Positions 18,936-26,862 of a DNA stretch of 34,710 nt are shown here, piece by piece; the stretch's first letter is position 1, and every line of letters begins with the position of its first letter. This DNA comes from an uncultured Nitrospira sp. (GTDB taxonomy: Bacteria > Nitrospirota > Nitrospiria > Nitrospirales > Nitrospiraceae), in the NCBI GenBank assembly GCA_902500785.1, contig CABVRW010000032.1:4450-39159 (forward strand). The letters are read 5' to 3'. Made by a program: the position numbers and the translations under genes. Under the pieces are notes generated by a model. The model did no database searches, had not been told where the DNA came from, and saw nothing but the letters and a program-made list of their open reading frames with translations.

Positions 18936-20570
18936 TCAGGCTGGTCGCCCGGCTGGTTCGCCACCGGCGGGTTCTGTGTCGTGTGAGAAATAGCCGGTCA
19001 GGCACAAAAGCGCGATGAGTATAGCACAGGCATAGGCAAAGACATCACCGTACTTCGAGTAAAAGGTTCGTTGATGACCGACGGCAATCGATCCCCTCAG
19101 CGCTTCTTGCGTGAAGATGGCTGACTGTTGCAAGACACGCCCGTATGGGTCGATGAATCCGGAGATGCCAGTATTGGCCGCCCGTGCGAAGGCGACGTGA
19201 TTTTCCACCGCACGAAAGACCACCATTCCAAAATGCTGATAGGGGGCCGACGATGGACCGAACCAGGCGTCATTCGTGACCGTGACCATGAAGTCCGCTC
19301 CATTGGCCGCAAACTGCCGCACCAGATTGGGAAAGATCACTTCGTAACAAATGACCACGCCGAATTTCACATGAAAGTCAGGAATGGTGGCTGCGGCGGC
19401 CATTGGAGGGTTTTTCTCCTGCGGCTTGAACATCAACAACGTCGATCCCGGACCGGCCTCGAAGTCCCCGATCCCTTCTACGAGTTTGTCGAGAAAGAAG
19501 AGCAACGAGTTGTGAAACGGAATGTACTCGCCGAACGGAACCAGATGTTGTTTATCGTAGCGACCGAGAATCTGACCGTCCGTCGCGAGCAGGTATGCGC
19601 TATTGAGTAAAAAGGGCCGTCCGTCCTGGTGGCGCCGCAACGCCGGACTGCCGAACAGTAGCGGGGCATCGGCGCGGCGAGCCATGTCGCCGAGCAGGGT
19701 GCGGTAGTGCGGTTCCATTTCAAACACGAAGGGCGTGGCGGCTTCCGGCCAAACGATCAGATCCAGGTTCTCGCCCAATTCTGTGGTGAGACGGTCATAG
19801 CGCGCCATGGTTTCTTGGCGAAACGCCACATCCCATTTCTGCGCCTGTTCGACGTTCGGTTGCACGATTCCTACGGACAGGGTGCGGGTGGTCGCATGTT
19901 GGGCGGCAGACAAGAGGGTGGTGCCATAAAACAAGGCCACACCGAATCCGGCTGCGGCGGCGACTGAAGAGGGCCAGGGAAACGAACGAATCTGAAATCC
20001 GCGATAGGCTTTGAGGCTCCAGATAATCGTTTCTGCCAGCGCGGCATTGACCAGCACCAGCAGGAATGAGACCCCATAGACCCCGAAATGGTCCGCCAGC
20101 TGGATGATCGGGAGCCATTGATATTGGGAATAGCCGAACAGTGCCCAGGGCAAGCCGGAGAGGAAGTAGGTACGGATCAACTCCAATGTCACCCAAAGAA
20201 ACGGCGCCGGCAAGAAGCCCAGAGTCGGAAACGCCGTCCTGATCCATGACAGTCCGCCCGCATAGATGGCCATATAGAGGCCGAGGTAGACGGTGAGCAA
20301 CAACATCACCAGGGTGGCAATCGGGAACGGCACCTTGCCGTAGACATTCATGGCGGTGATGACCCAGAACATGGCGCCCGTGAAGGCCAGGGTGCCGGAG
20401 AGCCATCCGATACGGAAGGCGCGGCCCGGGGGCAGGTACTCAACTGCGATATGCAGAGGCACCAGCGCGAACCAGGCCAACAGGCCAAGGTCGAAGGCTG
20501 GGAAGGAGAGGGGATAGAGGAGACCGCTCGCGCAGGCAAGCAGGATGAGGCGTGCGCGGGAGATGGTCAT
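18936..20570 (-). CDS. lnt: Apolipoprotein N-acyltransferase
   Basis: This 544-residue inner-membrane enzyme adds the third acyl chain to lipoproteins. The N-terminal half (about residues 5-225) has several hydrophobic TM segments. The C-terminal half is a nitrilase-like periplasmic domain followed by a last TM helix (VFAYACAILIALLCLTGYF). The catalytic triad is visible: Glu276 in IVWPEAATP, Lys340 in YDKQHLVPFGEYIPF and Cys408 in VVICYEVIFP. I chose ATG 20570; the frame is open to a TTG at 20606. It is the first gene of lnt-prfB-lysS-lolC-lolD, so lipoprotein maturation and export genes are grouped around two translation genes. Confidence 0.95.
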   Translation of the reverse strand: MTISRARLILLACASGLLYPLSFPAFDLGLLAWFALVPLHIAVEYLPPGRAFRIGWLSGTLAFTGAMFWVITAMNVYGKVPFPIATLVMLLLTVYLGLYMAIYAGGLSWIRTAFPTLGFLPAPFLWVTLELIRTYFLSGLPWALFGYSQYQWLPIIQLADHFGVYGVSFLLVLVNAALAETIIWSLKAYRGFQIRSFPWPSSVAAAAGFGVALFYGTTLLSAAQHATTRTLSVGIVQPNVEQAQKWDVAFRQETMARYDRLTTELGENLDLIVWPEAATPFVFEMEPHYRTLLGDMARRADAPLLFGSPALRRHQDGRPFLLNSAYLLATDGQILGRYDKQHLVPFGEYIPFHNSLLFFLDKLVEGIGDFEAGPGSTLLMFKPQEKNPPMAAAATIPDFHVKFGVVICYEVIFPNLVRQFAANGADFMVTVTNDAWFGPSSAPYQHFGMVVFRAVENHVAFARAANTGISGFIDPYGRVLQQSAIFTQEALRGSIAVGHQRTFYSKYGDVFAYACAILIALLCLTGYFSHDTEPAGGEPAGRPA

Positions 20571-21570
20571 TGTCCGTAACTTAACGAAAGCCCTGAAGAG
20601 ATTCAACCGTGCTCTTTTGAGGTGAGACGCATGCGACCCTGATCGGAGGGGTAATCGCGCAATGGGCTATCGACTTGGTCGTCCACTGAAGGGAGCATAT
20701 CCGCTCAGCCCACCGGACGATGCGGGAGCTTGCGAGCACGGCGTCGCCATGCCACGAGGGTGGAGCGGCAGCAGCGGTGCAGGTGTCAAGAGATTCGGTG
20801 GTGTCGGAGTTCCAAACGGTGTGATTGAGTCGGACAGGTGCCATGAGGTGAACTGAATGGCGGAGGAGAAATATCGGATTTGCGATGGGTGCCGCCTCTA
20901 TTTCCGCGCGCGTCGGACTAGATGGCATTGGGGTCATTCAGCGGAAGGAGTATGTCGCTAGCGTCGTCGCGTGGTTGAATAGTCGATGGCTGGGAGTCGG
21001 CCTTGGAGGTTGGGCCGATAAGCGTCCAGACGGCAAGGAACATTAGCATGACGCTGTGGCGCGTGGAGCACCTCCCGGTTGAGCATGACTTGGGACCCCA
21101 GGCGATATCGTACTGCAGGTCGTGCCTGTTTAGGTGTGTCATCGTCGTATGTCCTGGTGCGAGATGGCCCATGCCCTGCAGCGCGCGTCCGTTCTGAGTT
21201 CTTGCCGTATTGACTGCTTTGTAGGCGAAGCATAGACTAATCCATCAAGCAATTGAGTACCGCCCTTTCTGTAGGTGGTCGCATGGTCCTCCGTGGCGAA
21301 TATGACCGCCGCTGTGACCAAGCCAGTCTTGTCCTCTCGCTTCCGCTCGGTACTCTCTATCATCGACATGCCGCGTCAAGTTCCTGCACTCGGCCGTGGC
21401 CCCCTGCAAGGTCGAGAATACGGATCCGTCCTACAGGTATTCCGTCCCGAGAGAGGAGGCTTGCCCCATGCACAGACGACTGCGATTTCGTGCGGATCAA
21501 ATTCCAGCGCGCCGGCATCCTGCCTGTTTGCCGCGCGCCGAGTTATCCGAGGCAGGACTAGGAGGGCCTC
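20571..21570. other. Gene-poor kilobase between lnt and the plus-strand gene at 21571
   Basis: This stretch has only short overlapping frames on both strands, none with a recognisable domain. The best candidate is a 74-residue minus-strand protein with a hydrophobic segment (20918-21142), listed separately. A 34-codon plus-strand frame at 20857-20961 has a CxxC pair (ICDGC) and an AGGTG upstream, but overlaps the 3' end of that candidate. A 76-codon minus-strand frame (21139-21369) ends in ATGA with it. No tRNA, rRNA or transposase signature was seen. Confidence 0.6.
20918..21142 (-). CDS. Possible small secreted or membrane protein
   Basis: A 74-residue frame starts MTHLNRHDLQYDIAWGPKSC. 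It has a hydrophobic stretch SVMLMFLAVWTLIG at about residues 38-51, followed by a polar, acidic tail of about 23 residues (DDASDILLPLNDPNAI). The pattern is a signal peptide or single TM helix after an unusually long N-terminal region. AGGA lies about 11 bases before the ATG. An in-frame ATG at 21172 is an alternative. The product is unknown. The gap around it is otherwise empty, which supports a real gene somewhat, but a chance frame cannot be excluded. Confidence 0.35.
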   Translation of the reverse strand: MTHLNRHDLQYDIAWGPKSCSTGRCSTRHSVMLMFLAVWTLIGPTSKADSQPSTIQPRDDASDILLPLNDPNAI

Positions 21571-23758: not shown

Positions 23759-24271
23759 TCAGGACTTTTTTTCAGGCTTCTGATGGTGCCACTGTCTCGG
23801 CGCGGTTAAGCCGGACTGGTACGCGTGACCGAATCCGAGCACGAGGTGGGCGTCGCTCATCTGCAGCGCCCATAAGGCGAAGTCACCGAAGCCGAACATC
23901 ATCTGTGCTTGGGGAAACTTTTCTAGATAGCGCTGTTTGACCGACTCATACGACTCATGGGTCGGGGGCAGGATCGAGGCGGTCCCCTGCAAATTCATAC
24001 GCTGCAGGGCAGAGGGGTTTTTGCCTGGCCTATCCGACTCGGCGATAAACAGGCTGACCCTGGCATCTTGCAGCAGTTGCTGCGTATGCAATGCCAGCCG
24101 GCTCAGGTGGAGATAGACGCGCGTCCAATCGTCTCCAATGAGGTAGAGGACATGAGAGCCGAACGGATGCCCGTTCCGGAGCGTCAGGAGTACTCCTGTA
24201 CGTGCCTGCTCAACTAAGGCCCACCAAGCTGCCTCAACGTCGTCATTCGACATGGCATCCGGCATCGGCAT
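23759..24271 (-). CDS. Pyridoxamine 5'-phosphate oxidase-like flavin-binding protein
   Basis: This 170-residue protein has the split-barrel FMN-binding fold of the PNPOx/HugZ superfamily. After a helix (DDVEAAWWALVEQARTGVLL) come strands TLRNGHPFGSHVLYLIGDDW, VYLHLSRLALHTQQLLQDARVSLFI and LQRMNLQGTASIL, then the helix YESVKQRYLEKFPQA and FGFGDFALWALQMSDAHLVLGFGHA. The order matches HugZ-like proteins, including the 'S-x-L-A-x-H-T-x-N/Q-L' element. Such proteins act in heme breakdown or flavin/F420 redox reactions; the substrate here is unknown. GGAGG seven bases before ATG 24271 fixes the start; the frame is open to 24388 without support. It is divergent from the lipoprotein cluster. Confidence 0.85.
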   Translation of the reverse strand: MPMPDAMSNDDVEAAWWALVEQARTGVLLTLRNGHPFGSHVLYLIGDDWTRVYLHLSRLALHTQQLLQDARVSLFIAESDRPGKNPSALQRMNLQGTASILPPTHESYESVKQRYLEKFPQAQMMFGFGDFALWALQMSDAHLVLGFGHAYQSGLTAPRQWHHQKPEKKS

Positions 24272-24372
24272 CGAGACACCTCCCGTTGAGAACATTGTAG
24301 CGGTCTCCATGGAATTGTCCAGCACCGGATGGACACTGGTGGAAGCCGAGGTAACACCGGTCAAATCCCCCT

Positions 24373-24401
24373 TTGCCTCGGGAATCATCGCAGGATAAGA
24401 T
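24373..24401 (+). promoter_or_regulatory. Possible promoter of the lipoprotein cluster
   Basis: TTGCCT (24373-24378), a 17-base spacer and TAAGAT (24396-24401) each match four of six consensus bases. The predicted transcription start (about 24408) sits directly before a GC-rich inverted repeat. Confidence 0.35.
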
Positions 24402-24411
24402 GTGCCATCGG

Positions 24412-24427
24412 CCGGGTGTTCACCCGG
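24412..24427 (+). repeat. Inverted repeat at the 5' end of the lipoprotein cluster
   Basis: CCGGGTG (24412-24418) and CACCCGG (24421-24427) form a perfect 7-bp dyad with 2 bases between. It lies 18 bases before the ATG of the first gene and just after a predicted promoter, so it may be an operator or a 5' mRNA hairpin. Confidence 0.45.
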
Positions 24428-24444
24428 TCACCCGAGGAAGGGAG

Positions 24445-24855
24445 ATGTCAACGATGAGACACAAGCGATGGGGATCCGTACTGGTGGTGTTGTGCATTCT
24501 GATTGGGGTAAACGGCTGCGGTGGAACACAAGCGGAGATCAAAGAAGACCGGCTCACCGTCGGCCGGGTACAGGGTGAGGTCAAAGTCGGCATGTCGGCT
24601 GCGCAGGTGGCGGAACTTCTGGGTTCGCCCAATATCGTCACGACCGACGAGAAGCGCCGAGAAGTTTGGATTTACGACAAGGTGTCGACGGATCGCGTCG
24701 ATACCGCGAGTTCCTCCTACGCCGGGCTGATTATTCTAGGGACCAACTCCAGCGACCGCTCCAGCTCGCAGCGTCAGCGCACGCTCACTATTATCATCAA
24801 GTACGACGAGGAGAAGAAGGTCAGGGACTTTGCCTACAACTCCACCCAATTCTGA
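24445..24855 (+). CDS. BamE/SmpA-like lipoprotein
   Basis: This 136-residue predicted lipoprotein has signal peptide MRHKRWGSVLVVLCILIG and lipobox VNGC (Cys25 from the chosen start). The mature part contains VKVGMSAAQVAELLGSPNIV, followed by EKRREVWIYDKVS, the typical 'G-M-s-x-x-x-V-x-x-x-L-G-x-P' and 'W-x-Y' elements of BamE/SmpA-OmlA-type small domains. A Ser/Thr-rich loop (SSYAGLIILGTNSSDRSSSQ) is followed by strands TLTIIIKYDEEKKVRDFAYN. BamE assists beta-barrel assembly, but many lipoproteins share this fold, so the role is open. ATG 24445 has GAGGAAGGGAG just upstream. It heads a run of four lipoprotein genes. Confidence 0.85.
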   Translation: MSTMRHKRWGSVLVVLCILIGVNGCGGTQAEIKEDRLTVGRVQGEVKVGMSAAQVAELLGSPNIVTTDEKRREVWIYDKVSTDRVDTASSSYAGLIILGTNSSDRSSSQRQRTLTIIIKYDEEKKVRDFAYNSTQF

Positions 24856-24880
24856 GCGAGAGGATCGTCTGCTTCATCGC

Positions 24881-25447
24881 GTGCTCACGACCATGATCCT
24901 TCTCGTGGTGTTGCCGATCGGACTCAGCGGCTGCGTGCAGCCGACGCAGCCGGCCGAGCTCTTTCAACTCTCGCCGGAGAGCAGCGCTCATCGGGCCATG
25001 CAGACTCGTTTCTTTGAGACGGAGAACGGGCATGAATTGTTGTCGGCCTCGGCCGCCGCGCTCCAGGATCTCGGGTTTCAAGTCGAGGAAAGTGTCCGAG
25101 AGGTCGGTTTTCTGAGAGCAGCGAAAGAACGGAGTGCTCGTGAGTATGGCCAGTATCGCAATCGCTTCTTTGTCTGGCTGCTGTCGCTCGGACACTTGGT
25201 CATACCCGTCGACCTGCATCAAAAAATCGCGGCCAGTCTGGTGATGCGACCGCTGAATCAGACAGCCTCGCGGCAGGAAGTCCGTATCATCTTCTACCGA
25301 GCGGTGTGGAAAGGGGATGGACAGGCAGACCGCAATTACATTCCCCCCGGTGAGCAAAAGATGGAAATGATCCGGGACCCTGAGATTTATCAGCAATTTT
25401 TTGCGGAGCTCTCCAAGGCGGTCTTCCTGGAGCCGCATACGATTTAG
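24881..25447 (+). CDS. Lipoprotein, tandem paralogue 1
   Basis: This protein of about 188 residues has hydrophobic MILLVVLPIGLSG and lipobox LSGC (Cys18). It shares a pattern with the next two genes: MQTRFFETENGHELLSASAA, then ALQDLGFQVEES, REVGFLRAAKE and a C-terminal RDPEIYQQFFAELSKAVFLE. This one has an insert of about 40 residues in the middle with a hydrophobic run (FFVWLLSLGHLVIPV). The start is uncertain: GTG 24881, ATG 24893, CTG 24869 (with AGGA close upstream) and TTG 24830 are all in frame; I took GTG 24881. It follows the BamE-like gene by 25 bases. The function is unknown; I do not recognise a named family. Confidence 0.8.
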   Translation: MLTTMILLVVLPIGLSGCVQPTQPAELFQLSPESSAHRAMQTRFFETENGHELLSASAAALQDLGFQVEESVREVGFLRAAKERSAREYGQYRNRFFVWLLSLGHLVIPVDLHQKIAASLVMRPLNQTASRQEVRIIFYRAVWKGDGQADRNYIPPGEQKMEMIRDPEIYQQFFAELSKAVFLEPHTI

Positions 25448-25459
25448 CCACGAGGATTT

Positions 25460-25897
25460 ATGAATTGGATACAGGTCGTCGGTACGGTCGTGATTGCTAT
25501 GGGAAGCATCATACTGCACGGCTGCGCCGCGCCGGAGCCACGACAGGAGCTTTTCGCACCGACTGATGCGCAGATGAAGATCAGGAGCGCGCAGACCCGC
25601 ACATTCGAGGTCAAGGACCACACGGCCGCGATGCGCGGCGTTCTCGCCGCCCTGCAAGATCTGGGCTTTATCATCGAGCGCGCCAATGAACCGCTCGGCC
25701 TGGTGACGGCGGCCCGGTTTGCCGAACCGAACTATTACGATGTCCTTGGCGTGACGGTGACTGTGCGTCCACAGCAGGACGGCAAGACCATGGTCCGCGC
25801 CAATGCCATCTACAATAGCAAGCCGATCGAAGACCCCAAGGTGTATCAGAATTTTTTCGCGGCCGTGGAACGTTCGTTATTTCTGGTGAAGGACTAG
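25460..25897 (+). CDS. Lipoprotein, tandem paralogue 2
   Basis: This 145-residue predicted lipoprotein has lipobox LHGC (Cys22). It is the shortest member and shows the shared core most clearly: IRSAQTRTFEVKDHTAAMRG, LAALQDLGFIIERANEPLGLV, TVTVRPQQDGKTMVRANAIY and EDPKVYQNFFAAVERSLFL. The core reads as helix-strand-helix followed by a beta hairpin, with the C-terminal helix carrying the Y-Q-x-F-F signature. GAGGA lies seven bases before ATG 25460. The gene starts 12 bases after its predecessor. It is presumably anchored in an envelope membrane; the role is unknown. Confidence 0.85.
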   Translation: MNWIQVVGTVVIAMGSIILHGCAAPEPRQELFAPTDAQMKIRSAQTRTFEVKDHTAAMRGVLAALQDLGFIIERANEPLGLVTAARFAEPNYYDVLGVTVTVRPQQDGKTMVRANAIYNSKPIEDPKVYQNFFAAVERSLFLVKD

Positions 25898-25900
25898 CCG

Positions 25901-26509
25901 GTGCCATGCCCCGTTCATCCCGTTGGATTTCAAGGCCGCTGGTCGAGCGGTCGTTCGTTCCTGGCCGGACTCGTCTCGCTGGCGTCTGTATCGTTCGCGG
26001 CCGGCTGCTCGCCGTATGAGTGGCGACATGAGAACCAGTGGGAGTCGCGCGACCAGATCTGGCTGTCTGAATCGAGTCAGGTCAAAGTGCGGGCCGCCCA
26101 AAGCCGGGTCTTCGACACTGCCGATCGCCTCAAAACGATTCAGGCGGTCGTCTCCACCTGTCAGGACCTTGGGTTTGCCGTCGAAGTGTTGGATGAAACT
26201 CTCGGCATCGTCTCCGGCAAGAAGTTTGACGATTACGAACCGTCGCAATGGGGCGATCCTGCTTATCACCTGTATCGGGACGACGGGCTCCTGATCTTAA
26301 CCCGGCAGTTCCGGAGTTGGGGACCGTTTTATCATCGCAGCAATCTTGTGCGCCTCACGGTCACTGTTCGACCCCGCGGCGAGACGCAATTGGTGGTCCG
26401 CGCCAGCGCGCAGTATTACCTCAAGGCCGTCGAGTCTCCGGAGCCCTACCAGCAATTCTTTCGCACGCTGGAGCAGGCGCTCTTCATTCAGGCGAACGCA
26501 CTGCAATAA
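25901..26509 (+). CDS. Lipoprotein, tandem paralogue 3
   Basis: This 202-residue predicted lipoprotein has a long N-terminal region and lipobox AAGC (Cys36). The shared core is VRAAQSRVFDTADRLKTIQA, CQDLGFAVEVLDETLGIVSG, LVRLTVTVRPRGETQLVVRA and EPYQQFFRTLEQALFI. Like paralogue 1 it has a mid-protein insert of about 35 residues (YHLYRDDGLLILTRQFRSWG). The start is GTG 25901 with GAAGGA nine bases upstream; it is 3 bases after the previous stop. It is the last gene of the cluster, followed by a small stem-loop. Confidence 0.83.
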   Translation: MPCPVHPVGFQGRWSSGRSFLAGLVSLASVSFAAGCSPYEWRHENQWESRDQIWLSESSQVKVRAAQSRVFDTADRLKTIQAVVSTCQDLGFAVEVLDETLGIVSGKKFDDYEPSQWGDPAYHLYRDDGLLILTRQFRSWGPFYHRSNLVRLTVTVRPRGETQLVVRASAQYYLKAVESPEPYQQFFRTLEQALFIQANALQ

Positions 26510-26658: not shown

Positions 26659-26862
26659 ATGTCTGTCGCACGAGTGACGGAAATTATTGCCGCTTCACCG
26701 AAGAGTTTCGACGATGCGATCCATATGGGAATCGCTCGCGCGAACAAGACGCTGCAAAACGTGAAGAGCGCCTGGATCGAGGATCAAAAAGTGGATATCG
26801 AAGACGGCAAAATCACGCAATATCGTGTGGCCCTGAAAGTCACATTTGTCCTGAAGGATTAG
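26659..26862 (+). CDS. Dodecin, flavin-storage protein
   Basis: This 67-residue protein has the usual dodecin length and sequence: VARVTEIIAASPKSFDDAI, then ARANKTLQNVKSAWIEDQKV and ITQYRVALKVTFVLKD. Dodecins form hollow dodecamers that bind flavins between tryptophans; Trp39 here is the conserved stacking residue (SAWIEDQ). They buffer free flavins and limit photochemical damage. AGGAGG stands seven bases before ATG 26659. The frame is open further upstream, but the Shine-Dalgarno and family length fix the start. A second small gene follows 9 bases later. Confidence 0.95.
   Translation: MSVARVTEIIAASPKSFDDAIHMGIARANKTLQNVKSAWIEDQKVDIEDGKITQYRVALKVTFVLKD

Follow-up and report, generated by a model that had tools for sequence, protein, structure and literature searches.

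A BamE-like lipoprotein linked to three paralogous lipoproteins of predicted helix-grip fold in Nitrospira: a candidate accessory set for outer-membrane barrel assembly

What might four adjacent lipoprotein genes do in the envelope of Nitrospira, and do they belong together? The genes lie in a window of 34,710 nucleotides (the whole stretch of DNA analysed) from an uncultured Nitrospira sp. The first-pass annotation had described three lipoprotein reading frames, here LpA, LpB and LpC (collectively the Lp proteins), closely packed behind a gene for a BamE-like lipoprotein, and this arrangement is confirmed: all four genes share one orientation, and LpA, LpB and LpC are preceded by gaps of 25, 12 and 3 bases, respectively (Table 1). 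LpB is 99% identical to its nearest named record. For the BamE-like gene, conservation across 16 aligned Nitrospira upstream regions makes the ATG the more likely start, rather than the opening at 24445. The conserved blocks ahead of it are possibly the promoter and ribosome-binding site of the cassette; a consensus scan for a sigma-70 promoter upstream of the cassette gave no match, the region being a poor sigma-70 consensus, and two terminator-like sites from the same scan were no better than chance. On the 5′ side lie a divergent HutZ/PNPOx-like gene (window 23759-24388, minus strand) and, about 4 kb away, the apolipoprotein N-acyltransferase gene lnt (PF20154; window 18936-20606, minus strand), whose position is kept in close Nitrospira. 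A dodecin gene (PF07311, E-value 2.5e-25; window 26659-26862) follows on the 3′ side, and both it and a downstream PAS gene accompany the cassette only within close Nitrospira.

Table 1. Features of the four-gene cassette and its upstream region in the window.
Feature	Position	Strand	Description
Upstream region	24370..24453	+	Blocks TTTGC ... GCAGGATAAGATG ... GAAGGGAG kept in 16 Nitrospira loci (alignment)
BamE-like lipoprotein	24454..24855	+	133 aa; lipobox Cys codon 24517; ORF also opens at 24445
LpA	24881..25447	+	188 aa, GTG start; Cys codon 24932; predicted helix-grip lipoprotein with inserts
LpB	25460..25897	+	145 aa; Cys codon 25523; predicted minimal helix-grip lipoprotein
LpC	25901..26509	+	202 aa, GTG start; Cys codon 26006; paralogue with mid-protein insert

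The BamE-like assignment of the first gene, originally made from the sequence alone, stood up in Pfam. In the gathering-score test, applied to the protein at 24445-24855 only, PF04355 was matched with an E-value of 1.4e-5 and 25.2 bits against a gathering score of 23.2, a weak match that spans only model positions 11-41 of 71. This protein is the sole match to PF04355 above the cut-off in its own genome; it also matches PHROGs, themselves of unknown function.

The three genes behind it had been proposed to result from duplication and divergence, which profile-profile comparison, shuffling and the tree all bear out. Local alignments scored above all 1000 shuffled controls, with Z-scores of 17 for LpA and LpB, 40 for LpB and LpC and 11 for LpA and LpC, and the hhalign E-values for the same pairs are 3.9e-22, 1.9e-33 and 1.9e-18; when each of them was compared with the BamE-like protein, the same shuffle test gave Z about 0. 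The shared core described earlier (Q-[TS]-R-x-F, [LC]-Q-D-L-G-F-x-[VI]-E, P-x-x-Y-Q-x-F-F and [LV]-F-[LI]) falls in a single alignment register, except that the [ED] placed before the proline is absent from LpC, which has S-P. Judged by these comparisons, LpA, LpB and LpC are true paralogues. Searches of Pfam, NCBIfam, PADLOC and PHROGs with all three returned no family match, and the two profiles, searched against PDB sequences, yielded chance-level matches only. In the tree, LpA, LpC and the single-copy Lp proteins of other genomes each form one supported clade, and LpB joins LpC. The simplest reading would be one ancestral partner that split into A and B/C, followed by a split of B from C, all before spread between phyla, an order inferred from an unrooted topology.

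A survey of genome neighbourhoods, suggested as a check on the original proposal, points to a fixed unit, with near-perfect co-occurrence of the BamE-like and Lp genes and a constant order. Scanning one genome per species yielded 76 loci, 67 of them with all four genes readable, and in every one of the 67 the order is BamE-like, A, B, C. These carriers include Nitrospira, Nitrospinaceae, contigs of metagenome-assembled genomes (MAGs) labelled Myxococcota, Methylomonas and others, although several of the non-Nitrospirota carriers (Methylomonas, Planctomycetota and other labels) are short MAG contigs, so that their taxonomy may reflect binning error. An Lp match was obtained in 51 of 121 related genomes and a strong BamE-like match (E-value below 1e-20) in 49, every one of which belongs to the 51; of the two exceptions, one is a contig edge (G002) and the other has only a 46-residue fragment (G061). 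Outside close Nitrospira the flanking genes vary, no conserved fifth gene or other partner was found around the loci, and the cassette contains neither bamA nor bamD. Searches of phage, plasmid and viral-contig collections for Lp gave no relative. One locus carries a second, partial LpC-like copy (L093:10329-10676) about 3 kb downstream of an intact cassette. Short open frames (75 aa) remote from the cassette in two genomes (G066:C3:227573-227707 and G061:C9:321934-322071) match the Lp family in its C-terminal third alone and are possibly remnants or a separate small protein.

Smaller versions of the cassette also occur, and in these the BamE-like gene is the constant partner. It is accompanied by two Lp genes in three gammaproteobacterial genomes and by a single one in Thalassotalea, two other gammaproteobacteria and several relatives within the order; cassette relatives are present in 6 of 395 genomes in the Thalassotalea order. 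In Thalassotalea the pair follows a VapE-type gene within an island (L109:362-9353) that comprises a P4-type integrase, AlpA, the VapE-like protein, the pair itself and a second integrase, both integrases being of phage type; a mobile island was seen at only one of the loci examined. In one gammaproteobacterium (L122:5514-14000), an Hsp70-family gene comes after the version with two Lp genes, as do two large genes of unknown product that resemble each other; PADLOC gave no match in this region.

Carriage is not obligatory. The cassette was undetected in two genomes of the same genus that are 99-100% complete (G001 and G006). In N. moscoviensis (L091:5470-6927), the cassette is decayed: there is no BamE-like gene, roughly 52 residues are missing from the start of LpA, LpB has no signal peptide, and LpC alone is intact. 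A separate canonical BamE is present in all six gammaproteobacterial carriers examined, and a canonical BamC in Thalassotalea, the one carrier checked for it. Non-detection in near-complete genomes, decay and the canonical BamE and BamC of carriers together argue against a housekeeping set, and on this genomic record the cassette is optional.

All four proteins appear to be sorted to the same place. The lipobox Cys occupies the aligned column in 68 of 70 BamE-like, 70 of 72 LpA, 73 of 75 LpB and all 74 LpC homologues, and none of the 286 sequences of the four families has an Asp after it. Under the E. coli sorting rule, the missing Asp predicts an outer-membrane location, and we thus predict four outer-membrane lipoproteins facing the periplasm. 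Given their linkage and joint loss, the four probably act in one physical complex.

Structure prediction gives the BamE-like neighbour its meaning. AF2 models of LpB (mean pLDDT 86.7) and LpA (mean pLDDT 75.8, low within the inserts), built on different alignments, each contain a single alpha/beta helix-grip domain of about 100 core residues; they agree in one fold rather than in unrelated ones. LpA, LpB and, through paralogy, LpC are thus predicted to share one helix-grip fold resembling that of BamC, and it is this resemblance, missed in the first-pass annotation, that makes a BamE-like partner significant. The BamC likeness had been recorded as a lead ahead of the Foldseek comparison with the PDB, in which E. 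coli BamC occupies ranks 1 to 13 for LpB (best E-value 1.3e-6) and ranks 1 to 4 for LpA (best E-value 4.6e-3, with none below 1e-3). VIA gives a match to the BamC N-domain (2laf) with a Z-score of 9.9 and an rmsd of 3.4 over 101 residues; however, Flpp3 reaches 10.9 and AMPK/KA1 and Bet v 1-like proteins 8-10, with At1g24000 and cytokinin-binding Bet v 1-like proteins ranked level with or above BamC, and TM-scores to BamC are no higher than about 0.5. Helix-grip is a common fold, and since VIA scores these other proteins as well as BamC or better, the fold alone is no proof of kinship with BamC.

At the level of sequence, kinship of the Lp family with BamC is suggestive only. The BamC model PF06804 has no match among the window proteins and is reached by one of 71 Lp family members (E-value 0.0091). 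With hhalign, P-values to the BamC C-domain are about 4e-4 for LpA and LpB and 0.007 for LpC, against yardsticks of 1e-5 for BamC's own two domains and 0.16-0.31 for reversed controls; matches of LpA and LpB to BamC columns 28-70 were discarded as signal-peptide matches. Only about 20 residues separate the Cys of LpB from its grip domain, so a BamC-type lasso is absent, as is a second tandem grip domain from the LpA and LpB models. We did not classify the Lp proteins as BamC, since the lasso and the second domain are missing and the sequence link is no more than suggestive. This weak link, the missing lasso and the retention of canonical BamE in gammaproteobacterial carriers point to a second, optional BamE/BamC-like set rather than to BamC itself.

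Our best explanation overall, offered tentatively, is a four-lipoprotein complex that docks on BAM as an optional accessory set. A BamE-like protein linked to one to three lipoproteins of BamC fold is most economically read as a BAM-accessory module. The BamE-like protein would assemble at the outer membrane with the three helix-grip subunits, each a single domain and all derived by duplication of one ancestral partner, and the complex would dock through its BamE-like subunit on the POTRA domains of BamA and on BamD. In support, a BamD-family protein is encoded in the genome (E-value 1.3e-30). The helix-grip subunits might then take the roles of BamC's two grip domains, holding BAM conformations or contacting chaperones or substrates, and the set could be used for particular substrates or under stress. 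Docking on BAM, suggested by the resemblance to BamE and BamC, is conceivable but somewhat doubtful, and a role in barrel assembly more doubtful still. With similar reserve, we propose that the cassette could be a second BAM-accessory module, transferable between phyla and taken on by BAM in Nitrospira and others to handle special barrel substrates. In that case, BamE and BamC would be just one instance of a wider BamE/helix-grip partnership, extending through Nitrospirota and other lineages, mobile and independent of housekeeping BAM. Versions with one, two and three Lp genes offer small, defined gene sets for probing BamC's role, and proteins so far without any family gain a predicted fold and a hypothesis.

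The main rival places the complex at the outer membrane without BAM contact, its grip subunits binding a lipid or hydrophobic ligand in the manner of START or Bet v 1-type proteins and serving lipid or envelope upkeep. The VIA ranking of Flpp3, At1g24000 and Bet v 1-like proteins speaks for it, as do the unlinked BAM core genes and the genomes that manage without the cassette; yet Foldseek favours BamC for both models and the constant partner is BamE-like, that is, of BAM type, and we regard this alternative as rather unlikely. More unlikely again is a scaffold for some other envelope machine (secretion, efflux or surface layer) with its main parts encoded elsewhere: the varying neighbours outside the genus would allow distant partners, but only the four genes are conserved together and their carriers belong to very different lineages.

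The sparse presence in the Thalassotalea order and the island with its phage-type integrases and AlpA could also indicate a mobile protective cassette, conferring immunity to envelope-targeting toxins or excluding phage, especially as BamE-like proteins act as immunity proteins elsewhere (PMC12419801). However, known immunity proteins are described as fast-evolving (PMC12419801), whereas the BamE-like protein is 60-70% identical across phylum-labelled lineages; no toxin-like gene was recognised beside the cassette, PADLOC gave no match, the phage, plasmid and viral collections held no relative, and the mobile island is confined to one examined locus. The patchy distribution, the island in Thalassotalea and the precedent of BamE-like immunity proteins keep this reading alive at low odds. 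A last reading, that the cassette is nothing more than Nitrospira's own housekeeping BamE/BamC, would fit its sole PF04355 match above cut-off in a genome where a search for BamC (PF06804) returned nothing at E 1. Against this stand the near-complete genomes in which it was undetected, its decay in N. moscoviensis, the canonical BamE of gammaproteobacterial carriers and the canonical BamC of Thalassotalea, which make it very improbable.

How, then, does the set compare with known systems? With BamE (SmpA/OmlA, PF04355), the BamE-like protein shares its lipoprotein nature, the L-T...V-x-x-G-M...L-G-x-P core and a score above the Pfam cut-off; it differs by a Ser/Gly-rich insert ahead of a conserved T-L-T-I-I-I-K-x-D strand and by coexisting with a separate canonical BamE in gammaproteobacteria. 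Flpp3 of Francisella is likewise a single-domain protein and has the same fold overall, with a VIA rmsd of 2.7 over 93 residues, but sequence identity is 8-10%, and we know of no BamE-like partner for it. Like BamC (NlpB, PF06804), which partners BamE in E. coli BAM, the Lp proteins are predicted outer-membrane lipoproteins with a helix-grip domain. Whereas BamC has two such domains and a long N-terminal, BamD-binding lasso, described in the BAM literature (PMC13067283), Lp proteins have one domain each, form three paralogues in one operon, are only marginally similar to BamC in sequence and stand beside canonical BamC in Thalassotalea. The grip domains of BamC touch POTRA-2 in the SurA-bound state, and BamC-BamE contacts have been reported (PMC13067283; PMC3359395). 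This four-gene set did not turn up in our literature searches, which covered BamE with Nitrospira, BamE-like lipoproteins and DUF2242 lipoproteins. Extra BAM lipoproteins particular to one lineage have a precedent in BamF of alphaproteobacteria, which differs in having an N-terminal motif in common with BamC, no predicted helix-grip and no paralogue cassette (PMC3359395). BAM accessory lipoproteins indeed differ by lineage (PMC13067283; PMC3359395), and according to a 2026 review BamC and BamE arose within Proteobacteria, BAM elsewhere consisting mostly of BamA-BamD with varying extras (PMC13067283).
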